Assembly (NCBI GenBank): GCA_002779995.1
Contig: PEWX01000033.1
Span: 1-34,360, forward strand
DNA: 34,360 bases
From: Piscirickettsiaceae bacterium CG07_land_8_20_14_0_80_44_28
GTDB taxonomy: Bacteria; Pseudomonadota; Gammaproteobacteria; Thiomicrospirales; Thiomicrospiraceae
Reading direction: 5' to 3'
Positions 1-21,949 of this stretch are shown piece after piece (positions within the stretch are counted from its first letter, which is position 1; every line of letters starts with the position of its first letter). The notes below the pieces were generated by a model. The model was not told the origin of the DNA, ran no database searches, and was given only the letters and a program-made list of their open reading frames with translations. The position numbers were made by a program, and so were the translations under genes.

Positions 1-1149
1 AATGAAAACGGCTACCACAATATTGAATACATTAAAGGCTCATTACCCGAAGACGAGTTAAAGCAGAAAATTGCCAAAGCCCATTTTATCGGCATTCGCT
101 CTCGAACCCAGTTAACAACAGAAATATTTGCCGCTGCCAAGCGATTAGTGGCGGTAGGATGTTTTTGCATTGGGACCAACCAAGTCGATTTAGAAGAAGC
201 CAAGCGCCGTGGCATTGCTGTTTTCAATGCACCCTTTTCTAACACACGTTCGGTTGCCGAATTGGTCTTAGGGGAAATCTTGCTGTTATTACGAGATATT
301 CCTGCAAAAAATACCAAGGTTCACCGAGGTGAATGGGATAAGTCCGCCGTGGGCTCAGTTGAAGCACGCGGAAAGACATTAGGAATTGTCGGCTATGGCC
401 ATATTGGTATTCAATTAAGCATTATGGCTGAAAACATTGGTATGAAGGTTATTTTCCATGACATTGAAACCAAACTGCCCTTAAGCAATGCATCTCAAGT
501 CAAGTCACTTGACGCCTTATTAAAAAAATCTGATATTGTTTCTTTACACGTCCCTGAAACGGATGAAACCCAAAATATGATGGGGGCTGAACAATTTGCG
601 TTAATGAAAAAAGGTGCTATTTTTATCAATGCGGCACGAGGCACTGTCGTGGACATCAATGCCTTGGCCGATGCATTAACCTCCAAACACCTTTCAGGCG
701 CGGCCATTGATGTATTCCCAGAAGAACCGAAGAGCAATGATGAAGAATTTCACTCGCCTTTACGTGGTATGGACAACGTCATCTTGACCCCGCATATTGG
801 TGGCAGTACCGAAGAAGCACAGGAAAATATTGGTTTAGAAGTCGCAACCAAACTTGTGCGCTATTCGGATACCGGCACCACTCTGTCAGCGAAGAACTTT
901 CCGGAAGTGTCACTCCCTGAGCATAAACATCGAAGCCGCTTATTACACATTCACCACAACCGCCCCGGCATTATGACCAAAATCAATGAAGCCTTTGCCT
1001 CACAAAACATTAATATTGCCGCGCAATATCTCCAGACTAATAATGAAATTGGCTATGTCGTCATTGACATCGATTCCAAAGATAGAGAAGCCGGATTAAA
1101 AGAACTGCAAGCGATTGATGGCACCATTCGCACCCGCGTTTTACATTAG
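1..1149 (+). CDS. serA: D-3-phosphoglycerate dehydrogenase (5' end outside window)
   Basis: Oxidises 3-phosphoglycerate to 3-phosphohydroxypyruvate with NAD, the first step of serine synthesis, in the cytoplasm. The reading frame is open from base 1, so about 28 N-terminal residues (by comparison with the 410-residue E. coli protein) are missing. Visible marks are the substrate-domain run GCFCIGTNQVDL, the NAD-binding GYGHIG, the catalytic-domain INAARGTVVD and TPHIGGSTEEAQENIG, and a C-terminal ACT domain starting near HIHHNRPGIMTKIN, the usual serine-feedback site. The next gene starts 7 bases after the stop codon, so the two are probably co-transcribed. SerA is known to reduce 2-oxoglutarate to D-2-hydroxyglutarate as a side reaction, which fits the neighbour. 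Identity is very secure; only the start lies outside the window. Confidence 0.97.
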   Translation, partial: NENGYHNIEYIKGSLPEDELKQKIAKAHFIGIRSRTQLTTEIFAAAKRLVAVGCFCIGTNQVDLEEAKRRGIAVFNAPFSNTRSVAELVLGEILLLLRDIPAKNTKVHRGEWDKSAVGSVEARGKTLGIVGYGHIGIQLSIMAENIGMKVIFHDIETKLPLSNASQVKSLDALLKKSDIVSLHVPETDETQNMMGAEQFALMKKGAIFINAARGTVVDINALADALTSKHLSGAAIDVFPEEPKSNDEEFHSPLRGMDNVILTPHIGGSTEEAQENIGLEVATKLVRYSDTGTTLSAKNFPEVSLPEHKHRSRLLHIHHNRPGIMTKINEAFASQNINIAAQYLQTNNEIGYVVIDIDSKDREAGLKELQAIDGTIRTRVLH

Positions 1150-1156
1150 GAAAATT

Positions 1157-3955
1157 ATGATTTCAACCGATGCATCTGTCTATGAAATTTTTCCGGAGGA
1201 TTTTCTTTATCCAAAGGATATCGCCATGCTGCAAGCACGCGTGCAGGCAGCCTTAAAGTCGCAGCAACCCATTACCATGCGCGCAGGCGGTACGTCATTA
1301 GGGGGACAAGCCATTGGTTCGGGCGTTTTAATTGACATTTCTAAACACCTTACCCATATTTTGGATTACCGCCCGGAAATGAAAGAGGTGGATGTTGAAC
1401 CGGGCGTCATTCAAGATGATCTAAACGATTTGATTAAACAAGATCATCTTCGTTTTGCACCGGACACCTCGACCTCAAACCGCGCAATGATTGGCGGCAT
1501 GATTGGCAATAATTCATGCGGTTCCTATTCAGTTTATTATGGCACCACCCGTGACCATGTTAAATCCGTGGAAGTGATTTTAGCTGATGGCAATTTGGTG
1601 CAATTTGAAGATTTATCGGCTGAAGCGTTGCATGAAAAACTTTCGTTGCAAACCCTAGAAGGGACGATTTATCGAACGGTTATCGAGCTACTGGAATCAC
1701 ATGGCCAGGCGATTGTTGATGCTTTTCCTGATCCCTCAATTATTCGCCGTACCACCGGCTATGCGTTGGATGTGCTTTATCGGGATTATCAACCTTTTAA
1801 CCCGGAAGGCAAACCCTTTAACCTAACGCCATTAATTTGTGGTAGCGAAGGCACTCTAGGGGTGATCACCAAAGCCACGTTAAAGTTGGTGGACTTGCCG
1901 AAACACCGTCAACTGTTTTGCGCCCATTTTGATTCGATTTACACCGCCATGCAAGTGGTGCCTCAGTATTTGGCGTTTAAGCCGGCGGCGATTGAATTAA
2001 TTGACAAGGCGACCTTAGACGGCACCAAAAATAATGCGGAACAAACTCAAAATCGTTTTTGGGTACAACAAGATCCCGAAGCAGTCTTGGTGGTTGAATT
2101 GTTTGACGAAGATGCCGAATCTTTGCAAAAATGTTTAAAAAATGACCAGGCCTGGATGTTACAACAAGGGGCTTATGCCTGCCCCATAATCGACCCCCAA
2201 GACAGCAGTAAAGTCTGGAACCTGCGCAAAGCAGGATTAGGGCTGTTAATGGGTAAACCAACTCGAGATAAGGCCGTTGCGGTCATAGAAGATGCGGCTG
2301 TTCCGGTAGCAGATCTTCCCGCCTTTTATCAAGATACCCAAGCCTTAATGGCAGAATTAGACATTGGCTGTGTGTATTATGGTCATGCGTCCGTTGGTCT
2401 GATTCACGTTCGCCCTGAAATGGATTTAGCGACCGATAAAGGCAAGCAATTGTTTCAAACGGTTGCAGAACGCAGCGCGGCTTTGGTTAAAAAATATCGG
2501 GGCGCGATTTCCGGGGAACATGGTGATGGACGTATCCGCGCGCCCTTTATTAAGGATCAAGTTGGTGACGCGGTTTATCAGCATTTGGTGACCTTAAAAC
2601 AGACATTCGACCCGCAAAATCTATTCAACCCGGGGGTCATTATCGGTGACACCCCCATTACCGAAAATTTACGAGCGAATCGACAACCTCAGCAGTTCCT
2701 GAGTCCCGGCTACAACTGGCAAAAAGATTTATCGCTGATGGATGCGGTGGAAAAATGTAATGGCGCCGGGGCTTGCCGAAAATCAGCGGGCAATGGCGTT
2801 ATGTGCCCTTCTTACCAAGCCACACGTGAAGAAAATTATTCCACCCGAGGTCGCAGTAATTTGCTGCGCCGTGCATTGACGGAACCCAATCCGTTAACGG
2901 CATTAAAACAACCCGAACTCCAAGATGCCTTATCCCTTTGTTTAGGCTGCAAGGCTTGTAAATCGGAATGCCCTGCCAGTGTGGATATGGCACGATTAAA
3001 GTCCGAAGTGCTTTATCAGGTAAATGATTTTTCATTAAGCGGACTCTCCATCAAATTTTATGGCGCCATTATGAAGCTAGGGGCAATTGCCCCCGGTCTC
3101 TATAATAGTGTGCAAAATCTTGCGATGGTTAAATGGCTCATGGCAGTTGATGCCAGACGCACCCTCCCTAAGTTGGCGAACCAATCCATAGCAAAATGGC
3201 TCGCGCATCAACCTGCTGCGGAAATCGTCTCAGATGATCAGCAAACCGTTTGGTTACTGCTCGATTTATATGTGCAATATCAAGAACCGAATATCGCTCA
3301 GGCCGCCATTCAAAGTTTGCAAGCACTCGGGCTTAACGTAAAACCGATTTTATTAACCAGTTCTCCCCGCGCACTTCTCAGCCAAGGATTGCTGAAGGAA
3401 GCAAAAACCGCTTTAGCCGAAATACAACAGCAATTGAACGCTGTCACTGCGGAAGACTTTGTGGTCGGTATCGAACCCTCCGATACCTTGGTTTGGCGTG
3501 ATGAAGCCATTGATTTAGTGACAGAAAACGACCAGGCCTGGTCATTTTCATCAGTATTATTATTTGAAGAATTGATTTTAAAACTGAATGAAACTCAGTC
3601 GCTTGACTTCCAGCCTTTGCGCCAAACCGTTTGGTTGCACGTGCATTGCCATCAAAAATCCTTAGCCAAACCGGAGGAAGTGGTGAAGGCGCTCCAACTC
3701 ATTCCTGAATTACGGGTCAATACCATTCAATCCGGGTGTTGTGGCATGTCTGGCGAGTTTGGCTATAAGAATTATGAGGTTTCACATAAGATTGCCAGCC
3801 AAACCTTATTACCCACTTTAGAAAAAGCGGACAATAATGATTTAGTGGTGGCAACCGGAACCAGTTGCCGCCATCAAATTGAAGACTTTGCCGACAAGCA
3901 AGGCCTTCATCCTGCTGAAATTTTTTGGATGGCGCTCAACCGCAAAAGCGACTAG
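1157..3955 (+). CDS. FAD-binding and Fe-S oxidoreductase, YdiJ / D-2-hydroxyglutarate dehydrogenase-like
   Basis: A 932-residue fusion protein. An FAD-binding (PCMH-type) domain at the N-terminus carries RAGGTSLGGQAIGSG (about 42-56), CGSYSVYYGTTRDHV (from 121) and CGSEGTLGVITKATLKL. An FAD-oxidase C-terminal domain follows, with GEHGDGRIRAPF. Two ferredoxin-like cysteine clusters begin near residues 534 (CNGAGACRKS) and 595 (CLGCKACKSECP). A C-terminal CCG-type module has HVHCHQKS and SGCCGMSGEFGY. This architecture matches E. coli YdiJ. The position right after serA supports oxidation of the D-2-hydroxyglutarate that SerA makes, with electrons passed through the Fe-S centres; the substrate is inferred, and D-lactate or glycolate are alternatives. 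The start at 1157 is chosen because AGGA precedes it and the longer frame from 1115 runs back into serA. Two CCAGGCCTGG words lie inside, both encoding Asp-Gln-Ala-Trp. Confidence 0.85.
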   Translation: MISTDASVYEIFPEDFLYPKDIAMLQARVQAALKSQQPITMRAGGTSLGGQAIGSGVLIDISKHLTHILDYRPEMKEVDVEPGVIQDDLNDLIKQDHLRFAPDTSTSNRAMIGGMIGNNSCGSYSVYYGTTRDHVKSVEVILADGNLVQFEDLSAEALHEKLSLQTLEGTIYRTVIELLESHGQAIVDAFPDPSIIRRTTGYALDVLYRDYQPFNPEGKPFNLTPLICGSEGTLGVITKATLKLVDLPKHRQLFCAHFDSIYTAMQVVPQYLAFKPAAIELIDKATLDGTKNNAEQTQNRFWVQQDPEAVLVVELFDEDAESLQKCLKNDQAWMLQQGAYACPIIDPQDSSKVWNLRKAGLGLLMGKPTRDKAVAVIEDAAVPVADLPAFYQDTQALMAELDIGCVYYGHASVGLIHVRPEMDLATDKGKQLFQTVAERSAALVKKYRGAISGEHGDGRIRAPFIKDQVGDAVYQHLVTLKQTFDPQNLFNPGVIIGDTPITENLRANRQPQQFLSPGYNWQKDLSLMDAVEKCNGAGACRKSAGNGVMCPSYQATREENYSTRGRSNLLRRALTEPNPLTALKQPELQDALSLCLGCKACKSECPASVDMARLKSEVLYQVNDFSLSGLSIKFYGAIMKLGAIAPGLYNSVQNLAMVKWLMAVDARRTLPKLANQSIAKWLAHQPAAEIVSDDQQTVWLLLDLYVQYQEPNIAQAAIQSLQALGLNVKPILLTSSPRALLSQGLLKEAKTALAEIQQQLNAVTAEDFVVGIEPSDTLVWRDEAIDLVTENDQAWSFSSVLLFEELILKLNETQSLDFQPLRQTVWLHVHCHQKSLAKPEEVVKALQLIPELRVNTIQSGCCGMSGEFGYKNYEVSHKIASQTLLPTLEKADNNDLVVATGTSCRHQIEDFADKQGLHPAEIFWMALNRKSD
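2146..2155. repeat. CCAGGCCTGG word inside the FAD/Fe-S oxidoreductase gene
   Basis: A coding copy, read in phase as C-CAG-GCC-TGG (Asp-Gln-Ala-Trp), preceded by AAAAAATGA. Confidence 0.9.
3530..3543. repeat. CCAGGCCTGG word, 14-base palindrome, inside the FAD/Fe-S oxidoreductase gene
   Basis: GACCAGGCCTGGTC is a perfect palindrome with AAAAC on the left and ATTTT on the right, so a coding copy looks like the intergenic terminators. It also encodes Asp-Gln-Ala-Trp. Confidence 0.9.
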
Positions 3956-3992: not shown

Positions 3993-5405
3993 ACGCTTAC
4001 GTTTCAATACCGCATTTTCTGCTTGCGATTCTGATTTTCCACGACGGAAGGTAAAGTTGGATTTGCGCCCTTCAAAAGGATTTTCTGTCACTCGGTACTC
4101 AATCATCACCGGCGTACCGACCCACTTAAACGCTTTACGAAAAACATTCATTAAATACTTCGAATAAGCTTGGGGCAGTTTATCCACCTGAGTGCCGTGA
4201 ATAATGACTCTGGGGGGATTTAATCCACCCAGATGCGCATAACGACACTTGACTCGACGGCCACCAATTAATGGCGGCTGATGATCTAAAATAGCCTGAG
4301 CCAATACACGATTTAAATCGGATGTGGGCACAGGTTTCATGGCGGCATCATAAACAGCATTGACGGTTTTAAATAAATCGCCAACCCCTGTACCATGCAA
4401 CGCTGAAATCAAATGCCGCTTGGCATAATCCACAAAGTGTAACTTATACTCTAACTCATGCTTAACTTTATCACGCTGTTCTTTAGAAAGGTTGTCCCAT
4501 TTATTAATGGCAATCACCAAGCCTCGACCGGATTCCATTGCCAAGCCCAGTAAGGTTAAATCCTGGTCGGTAATGCCTTCGGATCCATCAACCACCAAAA
4601 TCACCACATTAGAGTCTTCCATGGCTTCAATGGCTTTAACAATACTGAATTTTTCAATCTTTTCTTTTATGTTTTTACGGCGACGCACCCCGGCGGTATC
4701 AATGAGTGTGTAGAGACGATCATCACGCTGAAATGGCACATAAATACTGTCTCGTGTGGTGCCGGGTAAATCAAATGCGACCACGCGCTCTTCGCCCATC
4801 ATGCGATTAATTAAAGTGGATTTCCCCACATTAGGACGGCCAATCACAGCAACTCGGGTACCAGGGTGTTTATCTAAGTCTAAAGCATCGTCGTTTTCAT
4901 CAAATCCTTCAGGCGTCACATCCGTTAACACCTGACCAATCATGTCGGCGACATTGTCACCATGAGCGGAAGAAATGATATGAGGCTCTCCCAGACCCAT
5001 TTGATAAAATTCATTCGCAATAACGGCTTTCTTTTGCCCTTCTGCTTTATTGACCAATAAATAAATGGGTTTATTAAACTGACGGACGTAATGGGCAATG
5101 CTCTCATCGGCGGGAATAAGACCTGATCGGCCATCTACCAAAAACAACACTGCATCGGCTTCACTGATTGCAGCTTGCACCTGTCCTGCCATTAGCGGAT
5201 CCACCCCTTCCTGCTCACCACTCAAGCCCCCGGTATCCACCACTATATAAGGTCTATCGCCTAAACGACCGGTACCATATTGGCGATCTCGCGTTAACCC
5301 CGAATAGTCAGCAACAATCGCATCCCGTGAACGGGTTAAGCGATTAAATAAAGTGGATTTTCCCACATTGGGACGGCCTACCAAGGCAATAACCGGTTTA
5401 CTCAC
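3957..5405 (-). CDS. der: Ribosome-assembly GTPase Der (EngA)
   Basis: A tandem-GTPase protein needed for late assembly of the 50S ribosomal subunit. At 482 residues it has two G domains, each with GRPNVGKST (residues 10-18 and 189-197), a Switch II DTGG near 57-60 and DTAG in the second domain, and the base-recognition motif NKWD in the second domain. The first domain has NKAE (119-122) where many homologues have NKxD. A KH-like domain follows, then a very basic tail (KRKRKKKPQQKRR) suited to rRNA binding. The start codon is GTG and overlaps the bamB stop codon by four bases (GTGA), suggesting translational coupling. It is the last gene of the ndk-to-der operon and ends two bases from the stop of the opposing oxidoreductase gene. 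Confidence 0.97.
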   Translation of the reverse strand: MSKPVIALVGRPNVGKSTLFNRLTRSRDAIVADYSGLTRDRQYGTGRLGDRPYIVVDTGGLSGEQEGVDPLMAGQVQAAISEADAVLFLVDGRSGLIPADESIAHYVRQFNKPIYLLVNKAEGQKKAVIANEFYQMGLGEPHIISSAHGDNVADMIGQVLTDVTPEGFDENDDALDLDKHPGTRVAVIGRPNVGKSTLINRMMGEERVVAFDLPGTTRDSIYVPFQRDDRLYTLIDTAGVRRRKNIKEKIEKFSIVKAIEAMEDSNVVILVVDGSEGITDQDLTLLGLAMESGRGLVIAINKWDNLSKEQRDKVKHELEYKLHFVDYAKRHLISALHGTGVGDLFKTVNAVYDAAMKPVPTSDLNRVLAQAILDHQPPLIGGRRVKCRYAHLGGLNPPRVIIHGTQVDKLPQAYSKYLMNVFRKAFKWVGTPVMIEYRVTENPFEGRKSNFTFRRGKSESQAENAVLKRKRKKKPQQKRRTH

Positions 5406-18047: not shown

Positions 18048-19358
18048 TTAAATCACTTCACCGCGACCGATGGCAAAATAACGAAAGCCATGTTCGGCCA
18101 ACACCGAGTGTTCGTAGATATTGCGGCCATCAAAAATCACCGGGCGGTTCATTAATTCAAACATGCGATCATAGTCAGGACTCCAGAAACGGCGCCATTC
18201 CGTTAGAATCATTAAGGCATCAACATGTTGCAGCGCATCATACATATTATCAACCAACGTCACACCAGGTTTTTCTCCCCAATATGCTGCGAAGGCCGGA
18301 CCCGCTTTAGGATCATAGGCAACCACTTCTGCGCCTTGTGCCACTAGTGCTTCAATGGTTTTAACGCTAGGTGAATTATCGACCGTGGCAGTATTTGGTT
18401 TAAAAGATAACCCCCAAACTGCTATTTTTAAGCCCCGTAAATCGTTTTTGAAGAAACGCCACGCCTTACGAAACAGAACCTCTTTTTGAATTTCGTTGTT
18501 TTCCAAAACCACTTTAAGGAGGTCTGCATCATAGCCTTTAGACTGTAAACTGCCGACCAATGTTTCAACATCGGCTGCAAAATTAGGCCCCCCAAACCCG
18601 CACCCGGGAAATAGATAACTAAAACCAATGCGCGAATCTGACCCTAATCCTTGACGAACCTCTTCAATATCAATATTGTAATGCTCAGCATTATTGGCCA
18701 ATTCATTGACCAAGCTGATTCGAGTTGCCAATAACGCATTCACCGCATATTTGGTATATTCCGCCGCGCGCGTTGACATGATTTTCACTTGATCAGTGAC
18801 ATGGTTAAAGGGGCGCATTAAATCCCGCAACAACCGAATCGCATCTTGGTCAGAAGATCCCAAAATCACTCGTGAAGGCTTTGAAAAGTCATTAATAGCC
18901 GACCCCTCACTGATAAATTCCGGCATCGAAACCACCGCCGCTTTCGCAACCAAACCCCGCTGAGCAAAGGCTAATTTTATTGAGGCTTGAAATCGATCAG
19001 CGGTTCCAACCGGGAAGGTACTTTGATTCACCACCACCACATCTTTACGAGCGGTTTTACCAATTTCTTCAATCACCCTTTCGGCGCGATCTGCTCGCCA
19101 GGAAGGCATACTTAAAATATACACATTCCCATGCACAATACCAGCCTGCCAATCTGCCTCAAAAGTCAGCCGACCTTCTTGATATTGATTTGCTATTAAT
19201 TGATCCAGCCCAGGCTCTTGTCGAGGTAAAATACCTTTCTCTAGATCGTCAACCTTGACATTCCCAACGGGTAAAGCCATCACTTCATTACCGGTATGCG
19301 CCAACAACCCTGCCGTCACCAATCCACTTAATTCACACCCAAATACTGAAACTTTCAT
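18048..19358 (-). CDS. UDP-glucose/GDP-mannose dehydrogenase family protein lacking the catalytic cysteine
   Basis: A 436-residue member of the UDP-sugar dehydrogenase family, recognisable from STFPVGTA, MPEFISEGSAINDFSKPSRVI, EYTKYAVNALLATRISLVNE, GLGSDSRIG and VWGLSFKPNTATVDNSPS. Key residues are changed. The catalytic Cys of the GG(S)CFPKD motif is Asn259 (GGPNFAAD) and the following Lys is Ala262. The N-terminal GxGxxG is GCELSG, with Glu9 replacing a glycine. The acidic residue that binds the NAD ribose appears to be Pro30. The substrate-domain Lys203 and Asn207 are kept. It overlaps pgi by four bases (ATGA) and is in an operon with galU, so a role around UDP-glucose is likely. I infer a pseudoenzyme or altered activity rather than a normal UDP-glucose 6-dehydrogenase. 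Confidence 0.85.
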   Translation of the reverse strand: MKVSVFGCELSGLVTAGLLAHTGNEVMALPVGNVKVDDLEKGILPRQEPGLDQLIANQYQEGRLTFEADWQAGIVHGNVYILSMPSWRADRAERVIEEIGKTARKDVVVVNQSTFPVGTADRFQASIKLAFAQRGLVAKAAVVSMPEFISEGSAINDFSKPSRVILGSSDQDAIRLLRDLMRPFNHVTDQVKIMSTRAAEYTKYAVNALLATRISLVNELANNAEHYNIDIEEVRQGLGSDSRIGFSYLFPGCGFGGPNFAADVETLVGSLQSKGYDADLLKVVLENNEIQKEVLFRKAWRFFKNDLRGLKIAVWGLSFKPNTATVDNSPSVKTIEALVAQGAEVVAYDPKAGPAFAAYWGEKPGVTLVDNMYDALQHVDALMILTEWRRFWSPDYDRMFELMNRPVIFDGRNIYEHSVLAEHGFRYFAIGRGEVI

Positions 19359-20986
19359 TTTGCAACCCTATCAATTAATGCTTTTGTGGAACTGTCAAAC
19401 CCCTCGGCCAAAGTCCGATCTTTTATCGCACTATAGGCTTCTTTGGCAATTAACTTACCGAGTTCAACCCCCCATTGGTCAAATGAGTTAATGTCCCAAA
19501 TGACCCCTTCTACATAAGTTTTATGTTCGTAAAGGGCAATCAACATGCCCAATGTTTTGGGAGAGATGGTTTTCATCAAAATGGTATTGGAAGGTTGGTT
19601 CCCCGGATAATGTTTAAACGGCGAATCAAAAGCCGATTTCAATGCATCCGGAATCGCATCATCTCCCAACATCAAAACCCGCGACTGTGCAAAACAGTTC
19701 GCCATTGCCAATTGATGCTGATGACGCAGACTTTCATTTCTTTCCGACTGAGAACCTTCGTCGATATCATCCCGTTCAACCGGGGCAATAAAGTCACACA
19801 TCACCGCTTGGGTGCCTTGGTGAAGTAATTGATAAAACGCATGCTGAGCATTGGGACCTACCTCCCCCCATAGAACGGGACACGTACGATAGGCCACCTT
19901 TTCACCCGATTTTGCCACCGATTTACCATTACTCTCCATCACCAATTGTTCCAGATAAGAAGGAATATATTTCAACCGCGCATCATAGGGCAGAATCGCC
20001 TTATCGTGAATATTTAAGAAGTTGACATTCCAAACATCAATCAAACCTAACACCACCGGAATATTTTTGGCCAAAGGCGCTGTGGCAAAATGCTGATCCA
20101 TAATATGAGCGCCTTGCAAAAGCTCACGGAAACGTGGCATGCCAATTTTAAGCGCAATGGGCAACCCAATAGCAGACCATAAAGAATAGCGCCCCCCCAC
20201 CCAATCCCAAAATAACAATTGGTTTTCCGGCGGAATCCCCCACTCGGTCATTTTATCCGGCTTGGTCGAAACCCCAATAAAATGTTGAGCATAGATCACC
20301 GCATCATCTTCAATACACTCTTGCAACCAATCTTTGGCCGTTTCGGCATTGGATAAAGTATCAATCGTCGTAAAAGACTTAGAGGCCAATATAAACAAAG
20401 TGGTTTCTTGTTTTAGGCTTTTTAATAAATTTGAAGTTTGCGTCCCGTCAATCGAGGAGATGAAATGCAAATTAACGGGTGAATCAATCGTTTGCAAACT
20501 GTGAGTTATCATTAGGGGGCCTAAATCTGAGCCCCCCACGCCGATATTAACCACATCGGTTATGGGCTTACCACTGTACCCTCGCCAATGCTTGGCACGA
20601 ATTTTATCCGCCATCACCGCCATTTTTTGCAAAGCTTGCTCAACTTCGGGTTGCACTTTTGCCGCTTCACCGCTGACCGCCTGACCATCGGCTCTTAATG
20701 CCGTATGCAGTGCCGGACGGCCTTCGGTATCATTAACTTTTTCACCTGTTAATAATGCTTGAATCGCCGTGGGTAACTTTTGTTGCTCCGCCAGATCGAC
20801 CAACAACGATAGCGTTTGTTCGTTAATACGATTTTTGGAGAAATCAACATATAAATCTTCCAATTCCAATGAAAATTGCTCTGTTCGTGACACCTCGTTA
20901 AACAGTGCCGACAGATGAGCCGATCCCATACCTGAATCACAATGTACCTGTAAAGCCTGCCACGCAGGGGATTGTTCAACGCCCAT
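19355..20986 (-). CDS. pgi: Glucose-6-phosphate isomerase
   Basis: Interconverts glucose-6-phosphate and fructose-6-phosphate. The 543-residue length is typical of the long bacterial form. Both family signatures are present: DWVGGRYSLWSAIGLP and NSFDQWGVELGKLIA. The sugar-phosphate site VVNIGVGGSDLGP and the active-site GPNAQHAFYQLLHQG are also seen. GGAG precedes the start codon. It lies between galU and the dehydrogenase-like gene, supplying hexose phosphate for UDP-glucose synthesis. Confidence 0.97.
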   Translation of the reverse strand: MGVEQSPAWQALQVHCDSGMGSAHLSALFNEVSRTEQFSLELEDLYVDFSKNRINEQTLSLLVDLAEQQKLPTAIQALLTGEKVNDTEGRPALHTALRADGQAVSGEAAKVQPEVEQALQKMAVMADKIRAKHWRGYSGKPITDVVNIGVGGSDLGPLMITHSLQTIDSPVNLHFISSIDGTQTSNLLKSLKQETTLFILASKSFTTIDTLSNAETAKDWLQECIEDDAVIYAQHFIGVSTKPDKMTEWGIPPENQLLFWDWVGGRYSLWSAIGLPIALKIGMPRFRELLQGAHIMDQHFATAPLAKNIPVVLGLIDVWNVNFLNIHDKAILPYDARLKYIPSYLEQLVMESNGKSVAKSGEKVAYRTCPVLWGEVGPNAQHAFYQLLHQGTQAVMCDFIAPVERDDIDEGSQSERNESLRHQHQLAMANCFAQSRVLMLGDDAIPDALKSAFDSPFKHYPGNQPSNTILMKTISPKTLGMLIALYEHKTYVEGVIWDINSFDQWGVELGKLIAKEAYSAIKDRTLAEGFDSSTKALIDRVAK

Positions 20987-21064: not shown

Positions 21065-21949
21065 CTATTTTTTGCCTAATGCCAAGGTTTTTAAATAGTT
21101 CTTAAACCCCTCACCAAGCGTACTATCTCTTAATGCATATTCAACATTGGCTCTCAAATAGCCGAGTTTATCGCCACAATCATACGTTTTGCCATTTTTA
21201 AATTCGAAGCCAAACATCACTTCTTCTTCCAATAGCGTATCCATGGCATCGGTCAGCTGAATTTCGCCCCCTGCACCGGGTTGAGTGGTTTTTAAAATTT
21301 CCATTAATCTAGGCGTAAAAATATAGCGACCTACCACGGATAAATTAGAAGGCGCTTCATCAGGTTTAGGTTTTTCAACCAATTCGACAATTCGCATATC
21401 AGGCCCTTTTACACCGGCAATACCATATTTTTCGACTTCCGATTCATCAACGGCTTCCAGCGCCACGACGCTGGTGTGTATTTTTCGATATTGTTCAGCC
21501 ATTTGCGCCAAACACCCTCTTTTGGCGTGATACATTAAAACGTCCGGTAACAAGACGGCAAAAGGTTCATTGTCGGCAATAATGGGGGAGGCGCAAAGAA
21601 TGGCATGGCCTAATCCTAATGCCTCAGGTTGCCGAACACTGACAATGCGAACGCCTTCCGGGGTAATTTCTTGTAACGGCACCAATCGTTCAGATTTACC
21701 GCGGATATTGAGTTCGGCTTCTAACTCATAATGTTTATCAAAATGGTTTTCGATGGCGCCTTTGCTCGAATGGGTGACCAAAATAATATCGGTAATACCG
21801 GCCTCTGCCGCTTCGTGCACAATATACTGAATCAACGGTTTATCAACAACCGTCAGCATTTCTTTCGGAATGGCTTTGGTTGCCGGTAAAAAACGGGTTC
21901 CAAGTCCCGCAACAGGGATGACAGCTTTGGTTAATTTCTTATAAGACAT
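21065..21949 (-). CDS. galU: UTP-glucose-1-phosphate uridylyltransferase
   Basis: Makes UDP-glucose from UTP and glucose-1-phosphate. At 294 residues it begins with the nucleotidyltransferase core KAVIPVAGLGTRFLPATKA and IPKEMLTVVDKPLIQYIV. VLLPDVLM holds the metal-binding Asp, and VELVEKPKPDEAPSNL is the GalU-type sugar-binding segment. It is the first gene of galU-pgi-dehydrogenase. The gap to pgi is 78 bases with no clear terminator. Its upstream region has been invaded by small repeat elements, whose ends lie 20 bases from the start codon. Confidence 0.97.
   Translation of the reverse strand: MSYKKLTKAVIPVAGLGTRFLPATKAIPKEMLTVVDKPLIQYIVHEAAEAGITDIILVTHSSKGAIENHFDKHYELEAELNIRGKSERLVPLQEITPEGVRIVSVRQPEALGLGHAILCASPIIADNEPFAVLLPDVLMYHAKRGCLAQMAEQYRKIHTSVVALEAVDESEVEKYGIAGVKGPDMRIVELVEKPKPDEAPSNLSVVGRYIFTPRLMEILKTTQPGAGGEIQLTDAMDTLLEEEVMFGFEFKNGKTYDCGDKLGYLRANVEYALRDSTLGEGFKNYLKTLALGKK

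Follow-up and report, generated by a model that had tools for sequence, protein, structure and literature searches.

A cysteine-less UDP-glucose dehydrogenase homologue encoded beside pgi and galU: a likely pseudoenzyme and possible UDP-sugar sensor

BceC, the UDP-glucose 6-dehydrogenase (UGD) of Burkholderia cepacia (PDB 2Y0C/D/E), shares with the protein described here (hereafter pUGD, for a putative UGD-like pseudoenzyme) a full-length fold, about 40% identity, and the UDP-sugar residues, but has the catalytic cysteine, the NAD loop, the GTPPDEDG loop, and Tyr10 (2Y0C and 2Y0D are mutants at this position), none of which is present in pUGD. The short-type Ugd of the E. coli and S. pyogenes kind belongs to the same superfamily and is expected to use the same sugar nucleotide, but its catalytic YGGYCLPKD is intact, and it is 22–25% identical to pUGD. 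In the part of PMC9927302 drawn on here, the NAD motifs of UGDs are given as GxGYV, I(A/S)(V/T)(G/P)T(P/D), and KST(V/I)P(V/I), and the UDP-glucose motif as (Y/F)xx(P/A)(S/G)xG(Y/F)GG; the same part states that a Cys to Ala substitution in four characterised UGDs abolished their in vivo effect. Residue roles used below come from sections of PMC4794789 (the source for the diphosphate-binding role of Lys320), PMC3184952, and PMC9927302. A precedent for keeping an inactivated enzyme of the UDP-glucose branch is GalF of enteric bacteria. According to the section of PMC4643126 cited here, GalF is an inactivated GalU paralogue that lost most, though not all, of its activity, whereas pUGD, likewise a retained protein of this branch, is derived from a dehydrogenase and is without the nucleophile altogether.

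pUGD is encoded in the window (the whole 34,360-nt stretch of DNA analysed), which comes from a genome placed in the Hydrogenovibrio/Thiomicrospira lineage. Among named relatives, identity is 91% for Hydrogenovibrio sp. SC-1 and 80% for both H. halophilus DSM 15072 and Thiomicrospira sp. WB1. The genes concerned are:

18048..19358, minus strand: pUGD, UGD-like putative pseudoenzyme of 436 aa, coding sequence with stop
19355..20986, minus strand: pgi, glucose-6-phosphate isomerase (named from its translation), overlapping pUGD by 4 nt (19355–19358)
21065..21949, minus strand: galU, UTP-glucose-1-phosphate uridylyltransferase (named from its translation), upstream of pgi

The pUGD reading frame in the window is intact and starts with ATG. 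Pfam recognises the three UGD domains in its product (PF03721, PF00984, and PF03720). The protein scores 309 bits against the NCBIfam model TIGR03026, "nucleotide sugar dehydrogenase" (cut-off 189.8), and, at 307.4 bits, falls far below the cut-off of 700 of the TuaD equivalog NF047673. The three-domain fold and the profile score place it in the NDP-sugar dehydrogenase superfamily, and it is filed here as a member of that superfamily, not as a UDP-glucose dehydrogenase. Since the window protein passes TIGR03026, and all 23 of the 23 pUGD members scanned match this model (E ≤ 0.001), automatic annotation is likely to call such proteins nucleotide-sugar dehydrogenases; models of metabolism in these sulfur oxidisers might thereby gain a UDP-glucuronate route that the pUGD gene is unlikely to supply. 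A structure prediction, proposed as a check in an earlier sequence-only reading of this DNA, returned the UGD fold. The model was computed from 27 rows (pLDDT 92.9, pTM 0.86), 23 of which are UGD homologues found on viral contigs (out of 36 loci), so that it leans towards the UGD fold; an earlier four-row model (pLDDT 54.8) was discarded. The nearest solved structure is BceC (2y0c; Z 50.7, 1.7 Å over 433 residues), followed by the Porphyromonas gingivalis UGD with UDP-glucuronate (3gg2; Z 50.6). The predicted model and the structure matches confirm the fold alone and say nothing on ligand binding.

We compared, residue by residue, 61 pUGD sequences with 21 ordinary UGDs. In the pUGD set, the window's family (f1) is represented by 57 genomes with 58 sequences (that of the window included; one genome contributes two), and a second family (f102) by three sequences. 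The ordinary set consists of 18 class relatives from the high-scoring end of a class-wide sample and three proteins from the window's family. Numbering follows S. pyogenes UGD, whose catalytic residue is Cys260; the equivalents of the key positions in the window protein are Lys203, Asn207, Arg243, Asn259, Ala262, and Asp263. Lys263, Arg326, and the Arg of DGRN were assigned their roles from general background. Every tabulated column is invariant (21/21) in the ordinary UGDs. The segments of interest in the window protein are:

19317..19358, minus strand: residues 1–14, degenerate dinucleotide loop G7-C-E-L-S-G12; in pUGDs, Gly7 is kept in 61/61, Gly9 in 0, Tyr10 in 4, and Gly12 in 28
19269..19271, minus strand: Pro30 in place of the acidic NAD residue (Asp in 21/21 ordinary UGDs and 0/61 pUGDs)
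19098..19115, minus strand: residues 82–87, approximate site of the shortened GTPPDEDGSADL loop; the Thr83 column is a gap in 61/61
18729..18761, minus strand: residues 200–210, EYTKYAVNALL, with the UDP-sugar residues Lys203 and Asn207, kept in 61/61
18570..18632, minus strand: residues 243–263, with Arg243, the YLFPGCGFGG motif, Asn259 for Cys, Ala262 for Lys, and Asp263
18399..18401, minus strand: Lys320, the diphosphate-binding lysine, kept in 61/61

The four replacements first noticed from the window sequence (Glu9, Pro30, Asn259, and Ala262) were confirmed, each falling in a column invariant among the ordinary UGDs, and further ones were found. Glu9 occupies the second glycine position of GxGxxG and is followed by Leu in place of Tyr10, so that GCELS stands where GxGYV is expected. 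An acidic residue at 29/30, after β2, is found in none of the 61 pUGDs. The FIAVGTPPDEDGSADLQYV (GTPPDEDG) loop is seven residues shorter and Thr83 is gone; ILSMPSW stands in place of I(A/S)(V/T)(G/P)T(P/D), and KST has become QST (QSTFPV), the KST lysine being absent throughout the clade. Arg326 is replaced by Asp327 in the window protein and retained in 3/61, and Lys263, replaced by Ala262, is retained in 5/61. Overall, six NAD-side residues are retained in 0–5 of the 61 pUGDs. Because other parts of the NAD pocket survive (Gly7 as listed, Ser117 in 51, Glu145 in 49, and Thr118 in 27 of 61), the sequences are consistent with a weak or altered nucleotide site, which pUGDs may still possess.

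The UDP-sugar side presents a different picture. Eight residues, Pro140, Lys204, Asn208, cross-subunit Arg244', Gly257, Gly258, Lys320, and the Arg of DGRN, are kept in 61/61 pUGDs, as are Asn219 and Asn287; Asp264 is kept in 60 and Glu201 in 53. In the window protein, the UDP-glucose motif is present as YLFPGCGFGG (residues 248–257), and Lys204, Asn208, Lys320, Asp264, and Arg244 are represented by Lys203, Asn207, Lys320, Asp263, and Arg243. Glu141 is kept in just 21/61, mostly with Asp instead, so the region of the sugar pocket appears from the alignment to be changed somewhat. We took the 164 columns invariant in 20 ordinary UGDs (all but L064) and counted those kept in at least 95% of pUGDs: 15 of the 71 columns of the N-terminal NAD domain versus 44 of the 93 elsewhere in the protein (Fisher p = 0.0006); 36 of the 164 were kept in no more than 10%. 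Thus, as judged from the table of 61 versus 21 sequences, the dinucleotide side is largely gone, and the UDP-sugar side, including the inter-subunit arginine, is nearly untouched. Glu293, Trp300, and Gln341 are invariant in pUGDs yet variable in ordinary UGDs, and could form a candidate contact surface or interface.

The catalytic position itself holds no cysteine in any of the 61 pUGDs. It is occupied by Ser in 23, Asn in 19, His in 11, Tyr in 5, Asp in 2, and Gly in 1. Since the position is free to vary among six different residues, Asn was ruled out as a new nucleophile, and the proposal of a different mechanism resting on Asn259 loses ground. Catalytic residues are lost across an orthologous clade with intact frames, as expected of a pseudoenzyme, and pUGD is very probably just that, a retired UDP-glucose dehydrogenase; the pattern of conserved residues makes it likely, with somewhat less assurance, that it still binds a UDP-sugar. 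It is improbable that the bound UDP-sugar undergoes other chemistry, either NAD-free catalysis by Asp263, Lys203, and Asn207 (hydrolysis, elimination, or isomerisation) or a reaction with a new cofactor in the remodelled N-terminal site. The near-complete retention of Asp264, Lys204, and Asn208 despite the lost nucleophile, the survival of Gly7 and much of Ser117 and Glu145, and the family-wide invariants Glu293, Trp300, and Gln341 would all agree with such a reaction. However, the nucleophile position, Thr118, and Glu145 are all variable, and the N-terminal loop differs by clade (GCELSG, GHDYPA, GSTISA, and GSNPPA), which speaks against one shared new cofactor.

The gene neighbourhood is conserved as well. 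A same-strand pgi lies upstream of pUGD in 61/61 cases. The gap between the two genes is 30 nt or less in 58; they overlap in 54 (by exactly 4 nt in 36), a read-through case described below being counted, and the three larger gaps are 75, 196, and 1632 nt long. The coupling by a four-base overlap described earlier for the window holds for pgi (19355–19358) and fails for galU, which ends 78 nt before pgi. A same-strand galU accompanies pgi and pUGD in 56/61; in four others (L041, L065, and L066, at a contig end, and L063, at a chosen cut) the stretch ends too early for galU to be counted, and in L048 galU was not found within about 3.5 kb upstream of pgi. The 18 class UGDs that were read had no pgi or close galU within 5 kb (two, L127 and L134, are cut by contig ends); near one, L135, there is a weak 27% match to GalU. 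When loci were collected by pgi search in 30 class genomes (30 loci, of which 27 matched pgi clearly; roughly 1.5 kb of flank covered), an ordinary ugd was found directly downstream of pgi in one genome, G040. This pair has the same order as pgi and pUGD, but its ugd differs from pUGD in having GGSCFPKD and the NAD motifs intact; with its apparently live enzyme, it may resemble the ancestor of the pUGD arrangement. In another genome, G065 (locus L159), a single open frame of 943 codons runs through pgi and pUGD, with the junction at about 3995–4003. Relative to the sister locus L054 (genome G056), one base is missing at the junction, which falls within an A-run; the genome is a draft, and the read-through could be either a true fusion or an error.

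Because the cofactor site and the catalytic cysteine are lost and the key UDP-sugar residues are kept, pUGD is probably a sugar-nucleotide sensor and not an enzyme. We favour, at a probability of roughly 45%, the reading that pUGD is a UDP-sugar-binding pseudoenzyme reporting UDP-glucose to Pgi and/or GalU. A pUGD dimer or higher oligomer would bind UDP-glucose or a close UDP-sugar, which it would be unable to oxidise, and a ligand-driven change would be relayed to Pgi and/or GalU, the products of its operon neighbours. As a UDP-glucose sensor, pUGD would thus tune the branch leading from fructose-6-P through glucose-6-P and glucose-1-P to UDP-glucose in cells that we take to be autotrophic. 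The residue table, the clade, and the gene context support, as likely readings, two ideas put forward from the window sequence, a UDP-glucose-binding regulator or a pseudoenzyme. Regulation of Pgi or GalU is the tentative component, its chances falling a little short of even, and operon position alone shows no physical or allosteric contact. If the regulatory reading is true, a UDP-glucose dehydrogenase fold has been converted to a UDP-sugar sensor, which would offer a handle on how flux in autotrophs is shared out between the Calvin cycle on one side and glycogen or cell-surface sugars on the other. The clade provides 61 natural variants. A bolder version, in which phosphoglucose isomerase has in pUGD a regulatory subunit of its own that senses UDP-glucose and is made from the overlapping reading frame, is unlikely; if true, a dehydrogenase would have turned into an allosteric meter, and these autotrophs would have end-product control over the entry of Calvin-cycle hexose phosphate into the glucose branch.

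The same overlap (or gap of 30 nt or less) with pgi in 58/61 operons, as well as the single pgi–pUGD read-through frame, would also suit a ligand-independent structural partner, that is, a Pgi assembly or stability factor. We hold this about as improbable as the alternative chemistry, since it leaves the eight invariant UDP-sugar-side residues unexplained in a protein in which 36/164 UGD-invariant columns are kept in 10% of sequences or fewer.

Another proposal makes pUGD a partner, regulatory or heteromeric, of an active UGD produced by the cell alongside it. A second, normal ugd, which the sequence-only reading had suggested looking for, was found in the window's own genome: an ordinary short-type gene on contig C61 that has YGGYCLPKD and whose N-terminal part contains a stretch of N. 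At E ≤ 1e-12, another PF03721 match is present in this genome and in 44 others of the 57 carriers. However, 12 of the 57 carriers show no other match to this nucleotide-sugar dehydrogenase domain at E ≤ 1e-12 (G007, G013, G014, G015, G023, G033, G058, G061, G067, G073, G074, and G077), a count that depends on the cut-off, because the most divergent pUGDs themselves miss it and G015 has a weak 26% fragment match. Several of the 12 are drafts, and six (G013, G015, G023, G033, G058, and G061) are at least 99% complete. Since these carriers show no other nucleotide-sugar dehydrogenase at that cut-off, pUGD is not simply the partner of an active UGD, and the proposal, weakened by these genomes, has a slim chance of being correct. 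Contig C61 has a peculiarity of its own: at 1390–3855 of the locus (L078), there are four direct repeats of the terminal ~89 nt of the short ugd, 0.7–1.0 kb apart; copies 2–4 are 79, 71, and 93% like the first. Between the repeats are toxin–antitoxin-like genes (Phd/YefM with YoeB/ParE, DUF4160 with DUF2442, and a hypothetical gene with PemK/MazF), and the arrangement resembles a cassette array that is being extended at the 3' end of ugd.

The distribution of pUGD was studied with profile A1, built from 23 pUGD members. Orthologues scoring 573–675 bits were found in 57 of the 62 genomes of the window's family, in all seven genera; four ordinary UGDs recovered in the same search scored 299–491 bits, and a search of the order gave the same 62 genomes. 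Incomplete assembly is a likely cause of the five absences, because four of these genomes (G027, G068, G070, and G075) also have no pgi match and in the fifth (G011) the contig ends inside pgi. Among 369 sampled genomes of the class, pUGD-level scores (>550 bits) outside the family were obtained in f102 alone (G162 and G278); the sequence of the next-best match (511 bits) was that of an ordinary UGD. Twenty of the 188 class genomes with a match were read residue by residue in addition to the window's family (two f102 pUGDs and 18 ordinary UGDs), and the rest were classified by score. In the order of f102, pUGD is present in 3/6 genomes. A phylum sample of 398 genomes contained no pUGD beyond that of the window's own genome at E ≤ 1e-150. 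Searches of the open-licence literature on inactive homologues of UGD or nucleotide sugar dehydrogenases, and on UDP-glucose genes or such dehydrogenases in Thiomicrospira and Hydrogenovibrio, gave no record of the clade.

In a midpoint-rooted tree, with some rows on long branches, the 61 pUGD rows are split from 21 ordinary rows by one 100/100 branch (drawn as 1.26 + 0.18). The question raised earlier, whether homologues with the GGPNFAAD signature form a separate clade in a galU–pgi context, is thus answered positively as to clade and context; the signature itself does not describe the family, Asn being present in 19/61. A sequencing error, raised earlier as something whose correction might restore Cys, and an isolated mutation were both ruled out by the 60 further sequences that lack Cys. 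That pUGD is an ordinary UDP-glucose dehydrogenase whose motif differences are immaterial is very unlikely: homology is full-length and the window protein exceeds the TIGR03026 cut-off, but the whole clade is without the cysteine and several NAD residues, and in the cited part of PMC9927302 replacing this cysteine by Ala abolished the in vivo effect of four characterised UGDs.

The description of pUGD as an intact gene kept under selection stands, with frames intact and dN/dS low in the computed pairs. In nine close pairs, dN/dS of pUGD was 0.018–0.103 (eight computable), within the range of galU (0.012–0.124, nine pairs) and comparable to pgi (0.013–0.101, six computable); for pUGD, dS is above 1 and close to saturation in six of the eight pairs, so the ratios are qualitative. 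Mean protein distances over 54 operons were 0.37 for GalU, 0.40 for Pgi, and 0.48 for pUGD, and the three sets of distances correlate at 0.95–0.96, which shared ancestry alone would also give. A pseudogene in decay, which the loss of catalytic residues might suggest, is taken as refuted by the full-length frames in 57/62 genomes, the low dN/dS, and the invariant UDP-sugar-side residues, and has next to no likelihood.

In the three f102-order genomes without pUGD (G427, G429, and G377; loci L154, L155, and L156), pgi is present and no galU match was found near it. Instead of the galU–pgi–pUGD set, they have pgi near glgC and genes that look like those of glycogen enzymes. The glgC gene adjoins pgi in G427 and G429; in G377 another frame intervenes and the distance is about 1.3 kb. 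In this order, glgC and pUGD are mutually exclusive (3 versus 3 of 6). The exclusion is not general, because 43 of the 62 genomes of the window's family, the window's own included, have glgC, and pUGD as a general replacement of glycogen synthesis was rejected. The draft genome that contributed two pUGD sequences, G024, has two galU–pgi–pUGD operons, on contigs C103 and C24 (L043 and L045); on C24, a 1.6-kb gap separates pgi from pUGD, and one of the two pUGD copies is cut by a contig end. The double operon may be a duplication or contamination (4%). Elsewhere in the window, at 1115–3955, a 946-aa open reading frame was named by eye from its translation as an FAD-linked oxidase (D-lactate dehydrogenase-like) with a C-terminal ferredoxin/CCG (GlpC-like) part.
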